Positions 43,530-55,779 of a stretch of 64,000 nucleotides of DNA are shown piece after piece. Source of the stretch: Methylotenera oryzisoli (GTDB taxonomy: Bacteria > Pseudomonadota > Gammaproteobacteria > Burkholderiales > Methylophilaceae). The stretch spans positions 1 through 64,000 of the forward strand of contig CAMCVF010000007.1 of NCBI GenBank assembly GCA_945881735.1, read 5' to 3'. The notes below the pieces were generated by a model. That model did not search any database, was not told where the DNA came from, and saw nothing but the letters and a program-made list of their open reading frames with translations. A program made the position numbers and the translations under genes. Positions within the stretch are counted from its first letter, which is position 1, and each line of letters starts with the position of its first letter.

Positions 43530-43590
43530 CCGCTAGGTGATAATATAAAAAATAATATTATTATTTATCAATAAGTTAATTCAAAAAAAC

Positions 43591-43617
43591 TTCATTTAAC
43601 TGACACTTTAAATTCAT
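43591..43617 (+). promoter_or_regulatory. Weak Pho-box-like repeats upstream of the PAP2 gene
   Basis: TTCAT, GACAC and TTCAT start at 43591, 43602 and 43613, at 11-bp steps as in PhoB sites, but the middle unit is poor. Two CTGACAC copies (43600 and 43624) are also present, 24 bp apart. Much weaker than the sites at 45193, 45244 and 50567. Confidence 0.25.
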
Positions 43618-43664
43618 ATTCTCCTGACACACTGCCACTGTATACAAGTGTAAAGAGAATAATA

Positions 43665-44204
43665 ATGACGAAACAGTTGCAAAATTATTTAAGTCGCATG
43701 CATGCGCTAGATAGCGCCGTATGTGTGACAGTAAGCCATAGCAATCAATACCGTTTGATTCGCGATTGGTTTAGATTAATTAGCCGCTTGGGTGATGGTG
43801 TGTTTTGGTATGGTTTGATGTTGGCGATTGTGGTGACACAGCAATCTGAAGGCATTATGCCAGTGTTACATATGATAGCCGCTGGCTTGACGGGCACATT
43901 TGTTTACAAATGGTTAAAACAAAAAACGCATAGACCACGACCTTTTCAGGTGCGCCAAGATGTATGGGTGGTGGGTAAGCCGCTGGATCACTTTAGTTTT
44001 CCATCTGGTCACACTTTGCATGCGGTTGCCTTTAGTGTGGTTGCGATACATTATTATCCAGAATTATCTATTGTGCTAATACCATTCACTATAATGGTTG
44101 CCATGTCGCGCGTCATTTTAGGCTTACATTACCCTAGCGATGTATTGGCAGGACTAACTATTGGTTATGGTATTGCGCAAAGCTATTTAATGGCTTTTGC
44201 ATAA
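43665..44204 (+). CDS. PAP2-family membrane phosphatase
   Basis: 179 residues with about four to five hydrophobic segments and the three phosphatase motifs: KQKTHRPRP (K-x6-RP), FSFPSGHTLHA (PSGH) and SRVILGLHYPSDVLAG (SR-x5-H-x3-D). Such enzymes dephosphorylate phosphatidic acid, lipid A or undecaprenyl pyrophosphate. Convergent with the phospholipase gene and close to pst genes, so phosphatidate to diacylglycerol is a reasonable guess (inference). Confidence 0.82.
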   Translation: MTKQLQNYLSRMHALDSAVCVTVSHSNQYRLIRDWFRLISRLGDGVFWYGLMLAIVVTQQSEGIMPVLHMIAAGLTGTFVYKWLKQKTHRPRPFQVRQDVWVVGKPLDHFSFPSGHTLHAVAFSVVAIHYYPELSIVLIPFTIMVAMSRVILGLHYPSDVLAGLTIGYGIAQSYLMAFA

Positions 44205-44285
44205 TTGCAGATAATATTTATTTGATTAAGTTTTCTAAATTTAATCAATAATTTCTTATTTATTTGATTATCACTTTAGGTATAA

Positions 44286-45158
44286 CTATTTGGTCACCTG
44301 ATTGTAAAAGTGAATCGGCGTTGCTAGGCGCTTAGTTAACTCCTTCAAACATTTTTCACGCCAAAGCACCATCTCCGTTGTACTTAAGTGCCTTAATTCT
44401 GGGTCCCATTGAGGCCTATTGCCTTTAATCGATTGATCAAAATGCGTTAATGCATGCTTGGTTTTAGTCAAATAGTATTCTAGGTTAATCATTAAGCGTT
44501 TATCTTTAAATCTTGCAACTAAAAGAACGCTTTGCGATAGAAAGCTTTTTCTAAGTGCATAATCAGCCCATGCAAGCCGCCTTAAATGCGTGATAGCTTG
44601 TACTGGAGATAAACTGGCGTTAGGCTTTGAAAAGTAGGGCGCCACAAAAGCACTTAATTGGTGTATGTGCATTCGAATCAACTGATTTGGCGTGTAATCA
44701 ATTTGTTTTGCTATATGCGCGTCCATCGCCCATTCTGAAGCAATATGCGTAATTACCGATTTATTCAACCAAGGAATGCGCTTCCATTTGGCTTCAAATG
44801 CAGGCACAAAATGATTGTGCGCCACCACATCCACAAATAAGTGGCTGGTAAAGCCAATGGCAATAGCTAATTCTTCATCGGTACTAGCATTATTCATCAT
44901 CAATTCTGCTTTTTGCCATTGATGCGTTGTGTTGAACGATTTTGAAACAATCGCTAAATCGGGCAAACAGGCGCCTGCCAGTACTAGAGTAGGAAATTTT
45001 TTGATAACGCCATGAAGTTTTGGATCTAACAAAGGCGTTGCCATTAATAGCCATTGGGTAAAATAAATATGCGTATACAACCCCCACGCATTAGCATCGA
45101 AGGCAAATAAACTTAGCGGCATACACCATAAAATAGGCGTTACATAAGGCTTTATCAT
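44286..45158 (-). CDS. Secreted zinc-dependent phospholipase C-like protein
   Basis: 290 residues. The N-terminal signal peptide ends FDANA, so the mature protein would start with Trp (WGLYTHIYFTQ). Zinc-dependent phospholipases C of the Bacillus/clostridial type use the mature N-terminal Trp and following His as zinc ligands. Further ligand-like residues are in AGACLPDLAI and HLFVDVVAHNHFVPAFE. No C-terminal C2-like domain is seen. It would split phospholipids to diacylglycerol and phospho-headgroup in the periplasm or outside. A three-unit Pho-box-like repeat lies just upstream, and a GT4 gene is divergent. Phospholipase activity is inferred from the family. Confidence 0.75.
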   Translation of the reverse strand: MIKPYVTPILWCMPLSLFAFDANAWGLYTHIYFTQWLLMATPLLDPKLHGVIKKFPTLVLAGACLPDLAIVSKSFNTTHQWQKAELMMNNASTDEELAIAIGFTSHLFVDVVAHNHFVPAFEAKWKRIPWLNKSVITHIASEWAMDAHIAKQIDYTPNQLIRMHIHQLSAFVAPYFSKPNASLSPVQAITHLRRLAWADYALRKSFLSQSVLLVARFKDKRLMINLEYYLTKTKHALTHFDQSIKGNRPQWDPELRHLSTTEMVLWREKCLKELTKRLATPIHFYNQVTK

Positions 45159-45192
45159 GCAAAATACTTTTACACTGCGGCATTAAATATAA

Positions 45193-45220
45193 ATGACAAA
45201 TAGGTGATAATTTTGTGACA
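45193..45220 (-). promoter_or_regulatory. PhoB-box-like triple repeat upstream of the phospholipase gene
   Basis: On the minus strand: TGTCAC-AAAAT-TATCAC-CTATT-TGTCAT, three TGTCA-like units spaced exactly 11 bp, ending 35 bp before the ATG. This is the layout of PhoB binding sites (CTGTCAT-type repeats every 11 bp). Confidence 0.7.
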
Positions 45221-45243
45221 TGTCATCTAAATTTAGCTAACTC

Positions 45244-45260
45244 ATTCATTAAAGCGTCAT
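45244..45260 (+). promoter_or_regulatory. PhoB-box-like pair upstream of the GT4 gene
   Basis: ATTCAT-TAAAG-CGTCAT: two units 11 bp apart. TAAAAT, a possible -10, begins 10 bp after it (45271), the spacing usual for PhoB-activated promoters. Two units only, so less secure than the pstS and phospholipase sites. Confidence 0.5.
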
Positions 45261-45291
45261 AATGAATCGCTAAAATTTAAATTAAATAATT

Positions 45292-46506
45292 ATGGTTAAG
45301 CCAATGAATATATTACTTATTTCAGATGTTTACTTTCCGCGTGTGAATGGTGTTTCTACTTCCATTAGAACATTTACGAATCAATTGCAAAAAATGGGTC
45401 ATAGCGTACACTTAATTGCACCCGATTATGGCGTGATGACAGAGGATGAAGCATGGATTACCCGCGTACCTGCGCGTGCGATTTATTTTGACCCAGAAGA
45501 TAAGCTAATGAAGTATGGTGAAGTTTTGAAGCTGAACGCCAAATTAAAGGTCATGCGGTTCGATATGTTGCACATCCACACGCCTTTTATTGCGCATTAT
45601 GCTGGCTTAAAGCTAGCTAAAACCTTAAAAATTCCAGCAGTAGAAACCTATCACACCTTTTTTGAAGATTATCTGCATCATTATTTGCCATGGATTCCGC
45701 AATTTGCCGCCCGCGGTTTGGCGAGGCTAATTTCTAAAAAACAGTGCAATCAAGTCGATGCCATCGTTGCGCCTTCTCAGCCGATGTTGGATGTGCTGCG
45801 TGGTTACGGTGTTAATAGTCTAGCGGAAGTGATTGCCACGGGATTGCAAGCACATAGCTTTAGCCCTGCCGATGGCAATGCTTTTAGAGTAAAGCATGGC
45901 ATAGCGTTAGACCGACCTATGATATTGTACGTGGGCCGCGTTGCGCACGAAAAAAACATTGGTTTTTTGTTGATAGTAGCTAAGTTATTAAGCGATGTGA
46001 TGCCAGATGTATTGTTAGTTATTGCGGGGGAGGGTCCTGCATTGTCTAGCCTGCGCAACTCCGTTAAAGAGCACAGTATTGAAAATAACGTTCAATTTAT
46101 AGGTTATTTAGATCGTAATACACAGCTAAACAGTTGTTATAAAGCAGCCGATGTTTTTGTGTTTTCATCAAAAAGTGAAACACAAGGCTTGGTAATTTTA
46201 GAGGCGATGGCTCAAGGCACTCCAGTAGTGGCGATTGCCGAATTAGGTACCGCTTCTATTTTAATAGAGGGGAAAGGTGCGCTGATTTCAACAGAAAATG
46301 AATCAGAGTTTGTGCAAAAAGTGCATAGTGTATTGATTAACCCGCAGCGCCGTCAGCAACTTAGTGAAACGGCACTTGATTATGCGCAAAATAAATGGTC
46401 TGCCGAAATACAAGCAGAACGCATGCTTAGATACTATATGGTGGTTGCTAGCATGCATCAAAGTCAATCTAAAAAGCCTGAAGTATTGAGTATTCAGCAG
46501 AATTAA
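45292..46506 (+). CDS. Glycosyltransferase family 4, possibly diacylglycerol glycosyltransferase
   Basis: 404 residues, GT-B fold. The N-terminal NILLISDVYFPRVNGVSTSI is typical of GT4 lipid glycosyltransferases; the C-terminal donor site has ILYVGRVAHEKNIGFLL, VFVFSSKSETQGLVILEAMA (E-x7-E) and a G-T-P-V-V segment. No TM segments, but basic patches could bind membrane. A downstream ATG at 45304 is an equally good start. Position opposite a phospholipase C under Pho-like control suggests glycosylation of diacylglycerol to replace phospholipids (inference); mannosyl transfer to another acceptor is possible. Confidence 0.7.
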   Translation: MVKPMNILLISDVYFPRVNGVSTSIRTFTNQLQKMGHSVHLIAPDYGVMTEDEAWITRVPARAIYFDPEDKLMKYGEVLKLNAKLKVMRFDMLHIHTPFIAHYAGLKLAKTLKIPAVETYHTFFEDYLHHYLPWIPQFAARGLARLISKKQCNQVDAIVAPSQPMLDVLRGYGVNSLAEVIATGLQAHSFSPADGNAFRVKHGIALDRPMILYVGRVAHEKNIGFLLIVAKLLSDVMPDVLLVIAGEGPALSSLRNSVKEHSIENNVQFIGYLDRNTQLNSCYKAADVFVFSSKSETQGLVILEAMAQGTPVVAIAELGTASILIEGKGALISTENESEFVQKVHSVLINPQRRQQLSETALDYAQNKWSAEIQAERMLRYYMVVASMHQSQSKKPEVLSIQQN

Positions 46507-46556: not shown

Positions 46557-47336
46557 CTAGCCAAATTTACCAGTAATATAATCTTCTGTTTCTTTTTTGG
46601 TTGGGCGAGTAAAAATCATATCGGTATCGCCGTATTCAATCAACTCACCTAAATACATATAGGCCGTGTAATCCGATACGCGAGCAGCTTGCTGCATATT
46701 ATGCGTCACTACCAGAATAGTCAGCTTGTTACGCAATTCGCTCATTAGCTCTTCAATATTAGCTGTAGCGATTGGGTCTAATGCAGACGTTGGTTCATCA
46801 AACAACATGATTTCGGGGTCAGTTGCCAATGCACGGGCAATACACAAACGTTGTTGTTGGCCGCCAGATAAGTTAAACGCTAAATCGTGCAAACGGTCTT
46901 TTACTTCATCCCATAAGGCGCCGCCTTTTAAGGCTTCTTCAACTTTGTCATCTATCATGCGCTTGTTTTTCTCGCCGCGCACGCGCAAGCCATAGGCCAC
47001 GTTTTCATAAATCGATTTAGGAAAAGGGTTAGGTTTTTGAAACACCATGCTGATGCGCATACGCACTTCAATCGGGTCTACACCTGGCTCTAAAATATTG
47101 GTATTATCAGGATGCATGATAACTTTGCCCTGATACTTATTGCCTGGATATAAATCGTGCATGCGATTAAAGCAGCGCAAAAATGTCGATTTGCCGCAGC
47201 CTGAGGGGCCAATTAATGCCGTGATTTTATTTTCGTACAAAAGCATGTTCACGCTTTTTAAAGCTTGCATACCATTACTATAGAAAAAGTTTAAATCACG
47301 CGACTCTGCTTTAATTGCTGTTGTTACATTGGCCAT
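46557..47336 (-). CDS. pstB: Phosphate ABC transporter ATP-binding protein PstB
   Basis: 259 residues. Walker [10 protein letters not shown], signature [15 protein letters not shown], Walker [13 protein letters not shown] and the H-loop [15 protein letters not shown], as in PstB. An upstream in-frame TTG at 47348 is less likely; GGGAAA precedes the ATG at 47336. Last of the minus-strand pstS-pstC-pstA-pstB operon; phoU is not next to it. Confidence 0.96.
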
Positions 47337-47401
47337 AAATTTTCCCAAAAAATCTTTTAATTATTTAACTCTAGACAATATTTAAATCGAAATTTTATTG
47401 A

Positions 47402-48355
47402 TTACCACTTAATATTCTTACGAATTTTGTAACGTAGATAAATGGCCGTGCCATTCATTAATAGCGTTACGATAATAATAATAGCGCCTGTTGCAGCGGC
47501 ATTGATGTGAAATGCATGGTCTGGGCGTGATAGCCAGTTAAACATTTGAATCGGCAATACGGTAAAGCCAGAAGTGAGCCATTCAAAATTGATAAACGGT
47601 GGTTCAGTTGAAATTGGAGATGGTGGTAAAAAGGCAATAAACGTGAGTGCACCAATGGTAATAACTGGAGCAGTTTCGCCCAAGGCGCGTGCCATGCCGA
47701 TAATTACACCAGTTAAAATACCACCTTGTGAATATTTTAAAACATGATCTTTAACCACTTGCCATTTGGTGGCACCCACTGCGTAAGCGGCTTCGCGAAT
47801 GGCTACTGGAATGGCGCGAATCGATTCGCGAGTAGATACAATCACGATTGGTAAAATCAATAAGCCAAGTGTTAAGCCTGCCGTTAGCACGCTTTGGCCT
47901 AATCCTAAGCCATACACAAACAAGCCAAGTGCTAACAGGCCATAAACAATCGATGGTACACCAGCCAAGTTAGAAACATTTATTTCAATAAAATCTGAAA
48001 ACCAACCTTTTTTTGCATATTCTTCCAAGTACAAACCTGCTGCCACGCCCATTGGTATAGCCGTGATAAATGTGACTGACATCACTAATAGTGAGCCAAC
48101 CCAAGCCGATAATAAACCTGCTTTTGCAGCACGGCGTGAAGGGAAGTTGCTAAAAAAATCCAGATTAAAGCGACTGTAACCATCCATGACCAAGTCAATA
48201 AATAAGGTACATAAAGTCAGCAAGCCAATCATCAGTGCGATTAAGCCAACAATTGAAAACAAAACGTCATTGCGTTTATGGCGCTTAATCATGGCGCGAA
48301 CGCTATCAATATTATCTAGCACGTTTGCTTGCATTTTTTTGGCTATTTCAGTCAT
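47402..48355 (-). CDS. pstA: Phosphate ABC transporter permease PstA
   Basis: 317 residues with about six TM segments. The coupling-helix region has AIPVAIREAAYAVGATKWQV and GGILTGVIIGMARALGETAP, the EAA-like motif of PstA. Forms the channel with PstC. 47 bp after pstC. Confidence 0.96.
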   Translation of the reverse strand: MTEIAKKMQANVLDNIDSVRAMIKRHKRNDVLFSIVGLIALMIGLLTLCTLFIDLVMDGYSRFNLDFFSNFPSRRAAKAGLLSAWVGSLLVMSVTFITAIPMGVAAGLYLEEYAKKGWFSDFIEINVSNLAGVPSIVYGLLALGLFVYGLGLGQSVLTAGLTLGLLILPIVIVSTRESIRAIPVAIREAAYAVGATKWQVVKDHVLKYSQGGILTGVIIGMARALGETAPVITIGALTFIAFLPPSPISTEPPFINFEWLTSGFTVLPIQMFNWLSRPDHAFHINAAATGAIIIIVTLLMNGTAIYLRYKIRKNIKW

Positions 48356-48402
48356 GTTTATTGAGTGCCTAGGTGTTTATTAAGATAATTGTTTTATTTA
48401 AA

Positions 48403-49332
48403 TTAATAGTTTTCGCGAAATCTTTTGCGTGCAAGGTAGCCAAAAATATTAAATGTTAAAGTCATCAACATCAACACCAAGCCTGCCGCGAATATGCTTT
48501 GATAACCAATGCTGCCATGCGGTAAATCACCCAGTGCCACTTGTACAATGTAAGCAGTAATGGTTGCCGCACTTTCCATTGGGTTAAAGGTTAGGTTGGG
48601 TTGCTGACCTGCGGCAACAGCGACCACCATGGTCTCACCCACGGCGCGCGAAATGGCCAAAATGTAGGCAGCGATAATGCCAGAAATGGCAGCAGGAGTC
48701 ACCACTTTAACAGCCGTTTGAAAGCGCGTTGCACCCATCGCATAGCTACCCTCGCGCATACTCATTGGCACGGCACGCATTGCATCTTCTGCTACTGAGC
48801 TGATGTAAGGAATAATCATAATGCCCATTACGATACCTGGTCCCAACATGTTAAAGCCTGGTAAATCGGGGAATATTTTTTGCAACAATGGGGTGACAAA
48901 CAAAAGTGCAAAGTAGCCAAACACCACAGTGGGCACACCCACCAATAACTCTAAAATCGGCTTAACTGTTTCGCGGACTTTGTGGCTGGCAAATTCAGAT
49001 AAATAGATTGCACCAATAGTACCGAGTGGAATGGCCACAGATAGCGCAATTGCTGATGTCGTTAGCGTGCCTGCAACCAAAGGCATAATGCCGAAGTGAG
49101 CATCTTCAAAAAGCGGAGTCCATTGTGTGTCGGTTAAAAAATCCACAATTGAAACAGCTTTAAAGAAAGACAGCGATTCGAAAATTAACACACCGACGAT
49201 GGAAAATGTCGTTAATACAGCCGAAAGAGCCGCCAGCATCAATATGAATTCAATCACGCGCTCGCGTACATTGCGTTTAATATTTTTGGCCAAACGTGGA
49301 CTAATAGTAGTAATTTGATTTGCAGTGACCAT
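48403..49332 (-). CDS. pstC: Phosphate ABC transporter permease PstC
   Basis: 309 residues with six TM segments. The EAA loop is MRAVPMSMREGSYAMGATRF, followed by AISGIIAAYILAISRAVGET. Separated from pstS by about 180 bp containing a very strong hairpin, so it is probably expressed at a lower level than pstS. Confidence 0.96.
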   Translation of the reverse strand: MVTANQITTISPRLAKNIKRNVRERVIEFILMLAALSAVLTTFSIVGVLIFESLSFFKAVSIVDFLTDTQWTPLFEDAHFGIMPLVAGTLTTSAIALSVAIPLGTIGAIYLSEFASHKVRETVKPILELLVGVPTVVFGYFALLFVTPLLQKIFPDLPGFNMLGPGIVMGIMIIPYISSVAEDAMRAVPMSMREGSYAMGATRFQTAVKVVTPAAISGIIAAYILAISRAVGETMVVAVAAGQQPNLTFNPMESAATITAYIVQVALGDLPHGSIGYQSIFAAGLVLMLMTLTFNIFGYLARKRFRENY

Positions 49333-49457
49333 TGTCTAGGCGCTTTAAAAAGTGACTTATTATTTACTTGCATATTGTAATGAATTTATGTGGCAAATAT
49401 AAGACATTTTATTTTGCTGCATGATTTATAAGGCGATACGAGTGCTAGCATGTATTG

Positions 49458-49508
49458 TTTACGGCAATAAAAAAGACGGCATTGAGCCGTCTTTTTTATT
49501 GCCGTAAA
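49458..49508 (-). terminator. 23-bp perfect hairpin between pstS and pstC
   Basis: Arms 49458-49480 and 49486-49508 (TTTACGGCAATAAAAAAGAC... on the plus strand) pair perfectly over 23 bp with a 5-base loop and contain A6/T6 tracts. Placed right after pstS, it looks like a leaky terminator or an RNA-processing/stability element that keeps PstS above the permease genes. Confidence 0.85.
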
Positions 49509-49511
49509 ATA

Positions 49512-50510
49512 TTATTTAATACGCGCTAGTAACTCTTCAATTTTTACGCCAACTTCCGGTGTACCATCAAAGCCTGTACCTGGTTTTAGAGCTTTCCAGT
49601 GTTTGTTTACAGCAGCATATTCATTGGCTGGCAATGGAATATACTTTACTTCCTTAACCAAGGCTGGTGCGTTGTCTAAATAGAAGTTAATAAATGCTTT
49701 TAATTCGGGTTTAAGCGCCGCTGAAGTTGCATTCACATAGATAAACAATGGGCGAGCAAGCGGTTGGTAAGTGCCATTTTTAACGCTTTCGTAAGTAGGC
49801 ATAACAGCAGCTGCACCTTTTTTAGCAACAATTGGCACTGCTCTTAGCTTGTCTTCGTTCTCTTCAAAGTATGCAAAACCAAAATAACCCAAGCCGCCTT
49901 TGTCTGATTGCACGCCTTGCACTAATACATTGTCATCTTCAGATGCTGTGTAATCGCCTCGGCTAGATTTTGCTTTGCCTACAATAGCCTCAGTAAAATA
50001 ATCAAACGTTCCAGAATCTGAACCCGCGCCAAACAATTTAAGTGGTGTTTCAGGGAATGCTGGATTTACTTGTTTCCAAGACTTCACTTTACCTTGGGCT
50101 GATGGCTCCCACATTATTTTTAGCTCTTCAGCCGTTAAGCTTTTAACAAAATCATTTTTTTTGTTCACTACAACTGTTAAAGCATCGTAAGCTACCGGCA
50201 ACTCAATGTATTGAATACCAGCTTCTTTACAAGCTTCCATTTCTTTTTTTAAGATTGGGCGTGATGCATTTTGAACATCTGTTTCACCGCGACAGAATTT
50301 TTTAAAGCCACCGCCAGTACCCGAAATACCAACAGTCACTTTTACTTTAGTGGCAATTTGGTATTCTTCCGCAACCGCCTCGGTAATTGGATAAACCGTG
50401 CTTGAGCCATCAATTTTAATGACTTTTTCGGCGGCGAATGCGGTGGATATTGATAGAGTTGCAGCTACAAGTGCAGCAATTTGTAATGACTTGCTAATTA
50501 CAGTGTTCAT
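49512..50510 (-). CDS. pstS: Periplasmic phosphate-binding protein PstS
   Basis: High-affinity phosphate receptor. 332 residues with a signal peptide ([13 protein letters not shown], cleavage about residue 26). [20 protein letters not shown] and [19 protein letters not shown] form the phosphate site, and [17 protein letters not shown] supplies the second Ser/Asp set. C-terminal domain typical of the PstS (PhoX-like) family. A three-unit Pho box precedes it. Confidence 0.96.
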
Positions 50511-50566: not shown

Positions 50567-50594
50567 ATGACAAATTGATGATAAAAATATGAAC
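50567..50594 (-). promoter_or_regulatory. PhoB-box-like triple repeat of the pst operon
   Basis: On the minus strand: GTTCAT-ATTTT-TATCAT-CAATT-TGTCAT, three units exactly 11 bp apart, ending 57 bp before pstS. The -10 is likely TAGCAT or TATAAA downstream. pst operons are classical PhoB targets. Confidence 0.75.
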
Positions 50595-50649
50595 AAGGAC
50601 CATAAGGCAAAAGTACAAAGTGCATTTTTGCCTTATAAATTTGCTTAAC

Positions 50650-51156
50650 CCTTCATTTTAATTAATAGGTCAAGTTGGTAAAATATGGCAACGATCAAAT
50701 CGGCACAAGGAATAGTTAATACTCTTGTCAAAAAAATGCTTAAGCTAAGCCCCAGCCCACAGTAGAAACGCGACGTGATAAACCCACAACGATAATCGCG
50801 CCAGTAATAGTGTTTGGTGTTACTGGAATACCTAATGAAAAAGCACACACAAATTGCAGCTAATTAATTCGGCATTCAGGTGGGTAGAGCGATGATTTCT
50901 GAAACAACCACAACAAAATAATCATCAAGATTGATATCAGCAACATGTTATATAAAGACGATAAAATAACCGCCACAAAATAAGAATATGGTTGAATTAA
51001 AAAACCGCCCAAATAACGGCCGTTTTAAGGTGTTAATAATCGCGTTAAAACCATTGGTGAGATAGAGTTAGTTACCTCATCAAAGCTTTTCATAAAGTAA
51101 AATATAAGTGCTATAAAAACCAGTATCGCCATGACAATCATAGCGTGTTCAGTCAT
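50650..51156 (-). pseudogene. Decayed Pit-type low-affinity phosphate transporter
   Basis: From ATG 51156 the frame reads MTEHAMIVMAILVFIALIF and then SFDEVTNSISPMVLTRLLTP, the Pit N-terminal signature (normally G-F-H-D-A-A-N-S-I-A-T). After a frameshift TAVIWAVF follows, then stops. Later blocks FSLGIPVTPNTITGAIIVVG and SRRVSTVGWGLA match the C-terminal half but fuse F-S-L-G directly to I-P-V, implying a large deletion. Stops occur in every frame. Its ATG overlaps the decayed DUF47 gene, as in intact duf47-pit operons. Confidence 0.85.
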
Positions 51157-51528
51157 ATGCGTTCCAGCATCAAATCATGAACTTCATCCGCTATGTCTTG
51201 GCAGCTATCAAACACATCTTCAAACATATGGTAGAGTTTTATTGAGCGAATCAGTATGCGCGCATCGGTATCTTTTGCAAACAAGGGGTGCAAGCCTGCA
51301 CTAATTCCGTGGTCGGACTCACTTAATAATTCGAAAAATTTCTTTAAAATGCACATCAAATTTGCTAGCATCACTCACCGCTTTCATTACTGCTAGCAAC
51401 TTAAGGCCTTCTGCCGCACAATCGGCTAGGCAATTAATTGCCTAAAATAGTTTTCGCTGCTCGGTGAAATGGATGCCATTACTCTGCTGAATATTCCATT
51501 AGCCATGTCTTAAATTTCCCTAAAACAT
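51153..51528 (-). pseudogene. Decayed DUF47 (PhoU-like) Pit accessory protein
   Basis: The start ATG (51528) hits a TAG at codon 3, with more in-frame stops downstream. Then CAAEGLKLLAVMKAVSDASK and FDVHFKEIFRIIK are readable, followed by a frameshift into ELLSESDHGISAG ... RILIRSIKLYHMFEDVFDSC and ADEVHDLML, the C-terminal helix of DUF47 proteins. Broken in at least four places. The remaining ~100 bp up to the aquaporin gene show no gene. Confidence 0.75.
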
Positions 51529-51639
51529 CGTTTTAATTATGGCAGTAATGTTAAATTGGGCAGGGCTAAACCATATCAACTAAAGGCAATAAAATTGCAT
51601 GTTAATATCTACATACATCATCATTAGACATTTAAAGTA

Positions 51640-52293
51640 ATGGTAAAAAATAGAAATTTGAGCGAATATGCATCCGAATATATAGGCACTACTTTACTGC
51701 TTATGGTTGTGACAGGATCGGGAATAATGGGACAGCAGCTCAGCCCAGATAACCTAGCGGTCGCATTATTGGCAAATAGTATTGCTACAGGGTGCGGCCT
51801 GTATGTGCTGATAACATTATTAGCGTCAATTTCAGGTGCGCATTTCAACCCACTGGTCAGTTTATACGCTTGGCATGCAGGCCTGATTCAAACTAAAACT
51901 TTAGGCGCCTTCTGCATTGCCCAGTTTGCAGGCGCGATCAGTGGTGTATGTTTAACACACCTATTATTTGCTTTGCCCATCGTTCAGCATTCAAGCAAGG
52001 CTAGACATGGTTTAAGTATTTGGTTGAGTGAGCTACTGTCAACCTGTATTTTGCTTGCGGTCATTCATATTGGAGCAAGCACCAATAAGGAAAAATTACC
52101 AATGTTGGTAGCATTAACAGTGACGGCAGGCTATTGGTTTACCTCTTCTACCTTCTTTGCAAACCCTGCAGTAACAGTTGCTAGAAGCTTATCTAACACA
52201 TTTGTAGGAATCGCGCCTGCCGATACTATTGGCTTTATAAGCGCGCAATTGATTGCGCTATCATTAATGCTGATTTTTTTGAGAAAAGTATGA
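51640..52293 (+). CDS. Aquaporin-family channel, possibly arsenite/aquaglyceroporin (AqpS-like)
   Basis: 217 residues with six hydrophobic segments, MIP family. The first NPA box is altered to NPL (SGAHFNPLVSLYAW); the second is FFANPAVTVARSLSNT with the conserved Arg. The stop overlaps the arsC start by 4 bp (ATGA), so translation is coupled. In Sinorhizobium an aquaglyceroporin AqpS next to arsC lets arsenite leave the cell after arsenate reduction; the same role is inferred here. No ArsB, Acr3 or ArsR is present in the window. Confidence 0.8.
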   Translation: MVKNRNLSEYASEYIGTTLLLMVVTGSGIMGQQLSPDNLAVALLANSIATGCGLYVLITLLASISGAHFNPLVSLYAWHAGLIQTKTLGAFCIAQFAGAISGVCLTHLLFALPIVQHSSKARHGLSIWLSELLSTCILLAVIHIGASTNKEKLPMLVALTVTAGYWFTSSTFFANPAVTVARSLSNTFVGIAPADTIGFISAQLIALSLMLIFLRKV

Positions 52294-52700
52294 ACAATGT
52301 GACTATCTACCACAATCCCTTGTGCGGGACATCACGTAATACATTGGCCATGATTCGCGCCAGTGGTGTAGAGCCTGAAGTGATTGAATATTTAAAAACA
52401 CCACCAAGCCGTGAAAAATTAGTTGAGCTAATCAACAAAATGCACATTGCCCCGCGCGATTTGTTGCGCGAAAAAGGCACACTTTATGCCGATTTAGGTT
52501 TGGCCGATTTAAGCTTAAGTGAGAGTGTTTTGATTGATGCCATGTTAGCGCACCCCATTTTGATTAATCGCCCCATTGTGGCAACGGTTAAAGGGGTCAA
52601 ATTGTGTCGCCCATCAGAGTTAGTGTTAGACCTTTTAGAAAATCCAGACTTGACTGAATTTACTAAAGAAGATGGCGAAAAGGTAATAGCTAATTCTTAA
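52290..52700 (+). CDS. arsC: Arsenate reductase ArsC (glutaredoxin-dependent type)
   Basis: Reduces arsenate to arsenite using glutathione/glutaredoxin. 136 residues, thioredoxin-like fold. The catalytic Cys is at position 12 in IYHNPLCGTSRNTL, and the arsenate-binding Arg region is in ILINRPIVATVKGVKLCRP. Part of a two-gene unit with the aquaporin and beside the phosphate uptake genes, through which arsenate would enter. Confidence 0.93.
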   Translation: MNNVTIYHNPLCGTSRNTLAMIRASGVEPEVIEYLKTPPSREKLVELINKMHIAPRDLLREKGTLYADLGLADLSLSESVLIDAMLAHPILINRPIVATVKGVKLCRPSELVLDLLENPDLTEFTKEDGEKVIANS

Positions 52701-55422: not shown

Positions 55423-55779
55423 TCAATGTCATCTGTAACGACTTTTTATTTTAAAATTTAAAGCCTGCTTTTGAAAAAAGTAGCCGTTTTTTTTATTATT
55501 TTGCATTAGCAACAGAATTTTGTAAAAGCTCTCAATGTCGTGATATGACATGTTTTTGACACTAAAATGACTTATGGGCGTTTCCTGAATTTTGTGTAAA
55601 CGTCGGTTAATCACTGTTGCGGCATCCGCTCTTAAAACTTAAAACATAACCCAACCCGCCTTACTCAAAGCCTGCTGAGAAGTTTTAAGATGTATAATAG
55701 CTTTTGCTTGTTTTTTCTATCTCGTTCAGCTTTTAAAAAATCCGCAGCACTATCTTTAGACTGTTTTAAAGCATTTATT

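Follow-up and report, generated by a model that had tools for sequence, protein, structure and literature searches.

A candidate PhoB-controlled phospholipid-to-glycolipid remodelling module in Methylotenera oryzisoli, with an exported zinc phospholipase C predicted in the place of PlcP

Described lipid-remodelling systems and the Methylotenera locus

The systems closest to the locus considered here are the PlcP-Agt lipid-remodelling systems of Sinorhizobium, Agrobacterium, SAR11, Methylosinus and Pseudomonas, which, in the available excerpts of PMC4796936, PMC9239053, PMC8231724 and PMC8528852, combine a Pho box, a family 4 glycosyltransferase (GT4) beside a phospholipase C step to diacylglycerol (DAG) and a phosphate-starvation setting. 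These features, the lipase step by prediction, are shared by a locus of Methylotenera oryzisoli (Methylophilaceae), which lies within the opening 64 kb of contig C7 in a metagenome-assembled genome (MAG; G000, 2.02 Mb in 34 contigs, 92.7% complete); this whole stretch of 64,000 nucleotides is termed the window. Genes for a PAP2-family phosphatase, an exported zinc-type phospholipase C (PLC) and a GT4 enzyme lie there between glmM and pstBACS, according to the list of open reading frames (ORFs) and Pfam profiles. Judging from sequence comparisons, it is likely that they form a PhoB-controlled module for remodelling phospholipid into glycolipid, and that, from lineage to lineage, either the exported zinc PLC or PlcP takes the other's place. 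The genes of the locus are as follows.

43665–44204, + strand: PAP2-family membrane phosphatase gene (PF01569, 8e-22)
44286–45158, − strand: PLC, zinc-dependent phospholipase C family gene with a signal peptide by eye (PF00882 Zn_dep_PLPC, 62.6 bits, 5.5e-17)
45292–46506, + strand: retaining GT4 glycosyltransferase gene (PF00534/PF13439)
46557–50510, − strand: pstS-C-A-B phosphate transporter genes (ORF list and Pfam)

The Pfam profiles confirmed the gene identities and order of the initial annotation, which had placed the three genes beside pstSCAB. The likeness to PlcP-Agt extends to sister Methylophilaceae lineages, in which a PlcP-type gene stands beside the same GT4. The lipase of the window, however, is a predicted exported PF00882 zinc enzyme, in contrast to the metallophosphoesterase PlcP, and PAP2 and often DgkA are encoded in the same locus. 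Agt-like GTcp carries Asp at the EX7E position in the accessible part of PMC8231724, whereas the GT4 described here has Glu. By this motif only, GT4 looks to be outside the GTcp/Agt-like clade. The lipase shares with the Bacillus cereus-type PF00882 phospholipases C the Pfam model, a Trp behind the signal peptide and what we take to be their zinc-ligand pattern, but it is distant in sequence, and its gene context links it to the remodelling of a membrane belonging to the cell itself. Among NCBIfam models, the alpha-monoglucosyldiacylglycerol synthase NF049988 is the best match of GT4, near full length but under its cut-off.

Two further systems offer partial parallels. OlsBA-dependent ornithine-lipid synthesis at phosphate limitation yields a separate phosphorus-free lipid without PLC or GT4, although olsB/olsA relatives occur behind a PhoB box in the same genome and adjoin the module in small-genome genera, with olsB also present in two loci outside the family (L215 and L220). 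Streptomyces SCO0921, in the excerpts of PMC7937720, is likewise a lipase other than PlcP for which a role in releasing phosphate from endogenous lipids at low phosphate has been proposed, but it is hemolysin-like and lies in an ornithine-lipid operon; no link to a glycosyltransferase was found in those excerpts.

The case for plcP was itself argued from Pho boxes and neighbouring genes for non-phosphorus lipids (excerpts of PMC4796936), the same reasoning as applied here. PlcP is in use as a marker gene for lipid remodelling: the accessible passages of PMC9239053 survey methanotrophs with a PlcP profile, report PlcP in proteobacterial methanotrophs and note unidentified or other putative DAG glycosyltransferases, and PlcP is also mentioned in excerpts of PMC8528852 and PMC8115612. 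In the partial texts of papers on Methylotenera or Methylophilaceae, the terms "PlcP" and "phospholipase" do not occur in PMC6794327, nor "phospholipase" in PMC11978286, nor "PlcP" in PMC11844350. A zinc PLC acting in lipid remodelling is not described among the literature matches listed, a search that covered neither subscription papers nor preprints.

PhoB boxes in the window and in relatives

The promoter elements predicted in the window are listed below, with p-values from 200 dinucleotide shuffles of each promoter, so that p = 0.005 is the floor.

45193–45220, − strand: predicted PLC PhoB box of three TGTCA-like units (matrix score 16.7, p 0.005)
45243–45260, + strand: predicted GT4 PhoB box of two units, TTCAT at 45245–45249 and GTCAT at 45256–45260 (score 7.5, p 0.05)
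45271–45276, + strand: TAAAAT as the −10 element for GT4, ten bases past the box
43589–43606, + strand: weak PhoB-box-like site 5' of PAP2 (score 3.2, p 0.19)
50567–50584, − strand: predicted pstS PhoB box TTATCATCAATTTGTCAT (19.7 on the pstS-trained matrix; a genome-wide pattern scan finds the same site)

Three TGTCA-like units at 11-bp steps had been described before PLC, and two units followed after ten bases by a −10 element before GT4. Both descriptions were borne out by the coordinates: on the PLC strand, TGTCAC (45215–45220), TATCAC (45204–45209) and TGTCAT (45193–45198) are spaced by exactly 11 bp, and the −10 hexamer of GT4 starts at 45271. The boxes match the PhoB box found before phoB and pstS in this organism, with clear significance in the window for the PLC site only, marginal significance for GT4 and none for PAP2. 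No sigma-70 −35/−10 pair was found in the 133-bp spacer of the divergent PLC/GT4 pair, which fits activator-type promoters.

The PhoB gene of the source MAG lies on another contig and scores above its curated cut-off. A genome-wide pattern scan gave a single exact site, just upstream of this gene; the scan with one mismatch was noisy (16 matches vs 8 with a reversed control, several of them within ORFs), and the regulon claim is therefore based on comparison across genomes. Further PhoB-like pairs were noted in the source MAG at 55545–55561 of the window and 197 bp 5' of a pilin-like gene (L062).

For this comparison, a PhoB matrix trained on phoB and pstS promoters only was run over the 250 bp preceding each of a set of other genes. 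Promoter sets comprised the best-matching and chosen loci, which are mutually related, with identical upstream sequences removed. A TTGTCAYnnAnnTGTCAY-like box occurs in 29/29 phoB and 33/33 pstS promoters taken. At a score of at least 8, boxes were detected in 38/42 PLC, 25/39 GT4 and 19/35 PAP2 promoters, against 3/95 for six control genes together (greA 0/13, ftsJ 0/16, ftsH 1/16, folP 2/17, glmM 0/17, prfB 0/16); at the stricter p ≤0.01 the corresponding counts were 18/42, 17/39 and 12/35 vs 1/95. Scores of at least 8 were also obtained for the PLC promoter in 70 of 80 named PLC loci, and for 6/31 pstC, 1/32 pstA, 0/14 pstB and 1/9 arsC promoters. In the five loci with a PlcP-type gene that were scored (L130, L133, L135, L138 and L139), a PhoB box precedes this gene in every case; taking the promoters of the PlcP-type loci together with those of L215 and L220, 17/34 reach this score.

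An alignment of the PLC-GT4 spacer from 17 loci, the window and 16 relatives, displays as its conserved columns the TCA cores of all five units and a TAnnAT −10, at the expected spacing. The 11-bp repeats, whose lack of conservation in relatives had been named as a point of possible refutation, are thus kept in their unit cores, and a chance origin of the repeats is rejected by the control promoters together with this alignment. The initial annotation had assigned PhoB-box-like promoters to the module as a whole. This stood for PLC and GT4 across relatives; PAP2, whose site is the weakest in the window, has a box in only about half of its loci.

Replacement of the zinc phospholipase C by PlcP

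The gene order recurs in relatives and is not an oddity of the source MAG, an explanation that was discarded. Across 187 genomes of the family, a PLC homologue is present in 117 (E ≤0.001) and GT4 in 144 (E ≤1e-100). The 80 named PLC loci, many of which lie on stretches that end early, hold an orthologous GT4 (≥50% identity) on the same stretch in 70, on the opposite strand in 70/70 and across a gap of <300 bp in 48 of the 70, together with PAP2 (71 loci), pstB (40), dgkA (28) and an olsB-like match (5). Among 20 longer loci, dgkA adjoins PLC in 9/14 genera (g5, g12, g13, g14, g17, g18, g20, g21 and g22; family checked on one copy, PF01219), where it sits on the GT4 side of PLC, GT4 being located about 10 kb farther off in g13. 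Outside the family, seven loci (L215–L221, labelled Nitrosomonadales, Gallionellaceae, Gallionella, Sideroxydans and Sideroxyarcus, with two assigned to class or phylum only) contain PLC, PAP2 and a different GT4 (25–30% identity), with dgkA in 5/7, a family-confirmed pstS beside PLC in L217 and an OlsB-like gene after dgkA in L215 and L220 (family confirmed for L215).

A PlcP-type protein was identified in 24 of the 187 genomes (E ≤1e-20), and only one genome, G142, has both lipases; this mutual avoidance corresponds to a Fisher p of 1.8e-10, relatedness between genomes being ignored. In G142 (loci L288 and L289) the zinc PLC occupies the usual locus, and the PlcP-type gene is on another contig, on a stretch without module genes. 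Either lipase is present in 136/144 GT4 genomes. No lipase match was obtained in the remaining GT4 genomes, G004, G025, G089, G103, G117, G119, G136 and G147, and, among the six of them whose loci were read (all except G089 and G119), the contig of G103 breaks off inside dgkA. Conversely, G033, G052, G124 and G131 have a lipase and no GT4 at E ≤1e-100. In L292, L293 and L294, PAP2 and GT4 stand side by side adjoining glmM (with pst in two), with no PLC between them.

The two small-genome genera (0.7–1.4 Mb), g2 and g16, lack PLC altogether (0/31 and 0/16) and have the PlcP-type gene in 7/31 and 9/16 genomes and GT4 in 9/31 and 10/16, respectively. In the g2 and g16 loci that were read, GT4 and PAP2 accompany the PlcP-type metallophosphoesterase, with olsB a few genes off and, in L130, olsA beside them. 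The PlcP-type gene lies immediately 5' of GT4 in g8 and g11, the same PlcP-GT4 arrangement as in plcP-agt operons, while in one g4 genome dgkA comes in between and in another genome of that genus, G034, PlcP and GT4 are on separate contigs. In the g8, g11 and g4 loci with PlcP and GT4 together, GT4 had no PAP2 in its vicinity. Within g5 the lipases are exchanged at one slot: the order second GT4-PAP2-PLC-DgkA-GT4-(pst) of G038 corresponds to second GT4-PAP2-PlcP-DgkA-GT4-(pst) in G036 and G037. A GT4 tree of 43 chosen rows, which is a gene tree from a quick search and not a species tree, displays at least four changes of lipase type (38 rows, with G034 taken as PlcP).

The PlcP-type proteins of relatives score below the LpxH cut-offs and have no signal peptide by eye. 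That of g8 shares 47.5% identity over 95% with a protein of Sinorhizobium meliloti encoded near an N-acyl homoserine lactone synthase and a LuxR regulator, presumably the neighbourhood of SMc00171, the PlcP that has been characterised. The profile PF00149 is insensitive to PlcP/LpxH, with one match in the source MAG and one to five in each of 12 relatives, and the PlcP counts were therefore taken from direct protein searches. The source MAG contains no PlcP-type match at E ≤1e-20 and its sole PF00149 match is ApaH, so that a hidden PlcP is rejected by both searches; PlcP is absent in 15/15 genomes of the source genus. Together with the EX7E glutamate of GT4, this upholds the earlier claim of an enzyme set different from PlcP-Agt. 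On these comparisons GT4 appears to be the component that stays, mostly accompanied by PAP2, with a lipase that would be exchangeable and is sometimes missing. PAP2-GT4 as an invariable core was dropped, given the loci L137–L140, where GT4 has no PAP2 in view.

Proposed mechanism and alternative readings

Gene order, boxes, residue conservation and lipase replacement are read directly from the sequences; from them we infer a scheme in which every activity, the leaflet sides, the sugar, the lipid that is made and the induction at low phosphate are predictions. At low phosphate, PhoB bound to the 11-bp repeats would turn on pstSCAB, PLC, GT4 and often PAP2, and elsewhere olsB-olsA. The exported PLC would cut phospholipid at the periplasmic side into DAG and a phospho-headgroup, whose phosphate would be regained via Pst, probably following a phosphatase, while PAP2 would supply extra DAG from phosphatidate. 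DAG would move to the cytoplasmic leaflet, where its glycosylation by GT4 would yield a glycolipid without phosphorus, and DgkA, where present, would convert excess DAG back into phosphatidate. The PlcP-type enzyme would perform the PLC step in sister lineages.

With moderate confidence, the exported, PhoB-controlled zinc PLC is proposed as a second, unrelated remodelling phospholipase, attacking from the periplasm and delivering DAG, together with PAP2, to a GT4 other than Agt. With the same GT4 alongside, it and PlcP would have replaced each other several times across the family and, in one case, at an identical position inside a genus. PlcP would be the enzyme of those small-genome lineages which retain the module, as well as of a few further genera; Gallionellaceae and most of the family would use the zinc PLC. 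Should the zinc PLC do the job of PlcP, a PlcP survey of Methylophilaceae would miss 116/187 genomes (PLC without PlcP), and some Gallionellaceae too. The first remodelling step would then take place outside the cytoplasm, which would explain why a lipase is encoded next to the genes that capture phosphate in the periplasm. As PLC and PlcP are exchanged in nature next to one orthologous GT4, the function lends itself to simple complementation tests.

Several results weigh against such a module. Boxes score below 8 in 14/39 GT4 and 16/35 PAP2 promoters. None of 13 dgkA promoters reaches 8, and dgkA was therefore rejected as a PhoB target and is regarded as a neighbour only. Boxes are weaker in L215–L221 (PLC 4/7 at ≥8), with 0/10 promoters at this score in L215 and L220. 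The association counts for the two lipases ignore relatedness, 47/187 genomes have neither lipase (24/31 in g2 and 7/16 in g16 among them), and one genome has both. PAP2-GT4 is present with no lipase on the stretch in G004, G025, G117, G136 and G147, so that the unit can do without a lipase, and no PAP2 was seen near GT4 in L137–L140. GT4 reaches the NCBIfam cut-off in none of the 25 families listed out of 46 that it matches. For PLC, neither phmmer nor a profile search matched a solved structure, and its structure model gave no Foldseek match at E ≤0.001.

The strongest rival regards the exported PLC as a scavenger of external or debris phospholipids and GT4-PAP2 as a separate envelope pathway, neighbours merely through shared Pho regulation. 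PhoB-regulated secreted phospholipases exist in other bacteria, and the signal peptide of PLC, the separate, divergent promoters of PLC and GT4 and the five genomes with PAP2-GT4 and no lipase on the stretch are in keeping with such a role. In contrast, PlcP, which acts on lipids of the cell itself, occupies the position of PLC next to an unchanged GT4, the two lipases coexist in only 1/187 genomes, as one shared job predicts, and the dgkA adjoining PLC suggests intracellular DAG. A scavenger is thus considered unlikely, and remodelling of the cell's own membrane is preferred.

The GT4 model is that of a GT-B retaining enzyme (pLDDT 89), closest to MshA, BshA and PimB'. EX7E is conserved in 42/42 and GRVAxEKN in 41/42 GT4 sequences, some genomes being counted twice, and E296 and E304 are invariant. 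NF049988, its best NCBIfam model, gives 144.2 bits vs a cut-off of 400. As no cut-off was passed, the acceptor could be other than DAG, and GT4 is regarded as a candidate diacylglycerol glycosyltransferase. PAP2, in which all three motifs are kept in 26/26 homologues checked, is a candidate phosphatidate phosphatase supplying DAG; its NCBIfam relatives, all far below cut-off, are undecaprenyl-diphosphatase (the best), phosphatidylglycerophosphatase B, a second undecaprenyl phosphatase and LpxE. Action of both enzymes on a target other than DAG, for instance lipid A or an undecaprenyl-linked sugar, saving the phosphate of lipopolysaccharide or polysaccharide, would agree with these PAP2 relatives and with the breadth of the GT4 superfamily. 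Yet the best GT4 model is a DAG glucosyltransferase, the structure model fits the lipid-acting PimB' at a TM score of 0.78, and the genes that accompany the pair encode a lipase and a DAG kinase, joined by olsB/olsA in some lineages. A target other than DAG is accordingly doubtful, a little more so than a scavenging PLC, and DAG glycosylation is retained for the remodelling module.

The initial annotation had assigned PLC to the N-terminal-Trp zinc PLC family, and profile and residues support this assignment. The window copy exceeds the PF00882 cut-off (62.6 vs 26.8 bits), and a match to this profile is found in 29/29 homologues (E ≤0.001). The signal peptide, by eye, ends DANA|WGLYTH, which places Trp25 at the mature N-terminus, and a Trp lies right behind a cleavage-site-like motif in 51/51 PLC sequences (motif by eye, some genomes counted twice). 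W25, H30, D67, H79, H106, D110, H116, H138 and E142 are invariant across 29 sequences and match what we take to be the zinc ligands of Bacillus cereus PLC, including the HxxxDxxxxxH and HxxxE spacing. The structure model is all-helical (pLDDT 78.8), and no NCBIfam model matched the protein. A zinc hydrolase acting on some other substrate would be compatible with the missing NCBIfam, Foldseek and solved-structure matches, but the family profile, the Trp position and the nine invariant residues make it the least probable of the three rivals.

In the source genome, an OlsB-like and then an OlsA-like gene follow one of the genome-wide PhoB sites; both proteins score below the NCBIfam cut-offs, yet the OlsB and OlsA families are their best matches. 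An olsB gene was found in 145/187 genomes, and in the 30 best-matching loci its box scores at least 8 in 30/30, with 27 at p ≤0.01 (single-base shuffles, starts set by rule). The Pho regulon would therefore seem to include a second phosphorus-free lipid route, olsB-olsA.

Other features were observed around the module. A second, distinct GT4, termed GT4B, has strong PhoB boxes in the small-genome genera (L130:11674–12648 and L133:9373–10353), and a distant relative (28–31%) precedes PAP2 in G036 and G037. An exported-looking protein of 231–233 aa, with ARPMxTDDAR past the leader, is encoded between or beside dgkA and GT4 (L040:9575–10273, L048:9679–10380 and L130:13166–13858); its L040 copy has no Pfam or NCBIfam match. 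In three MAGs labelled Ca. Methylopumilus (L205, L212 and L214) the zinc PLC is present, accompanied by dgkA and GT4, unlike the small-genome g2 and g16, and their labels or lineages may need checking. In the window, the gap between pstS and the MIP gene (50640–51540) is without a listed ORF of at least 80 aa, and its minus strand resembles, by eye, decayed bits of a DUF47/Pit-type phosphate transport pair. Beyond it, at 51640–52700, the genes for a MIP-family channel and an ArsC-like protein overlap, and arsC adjoins pst in several relatives too; this pair may couple arsenate handling to phosphate uptake.

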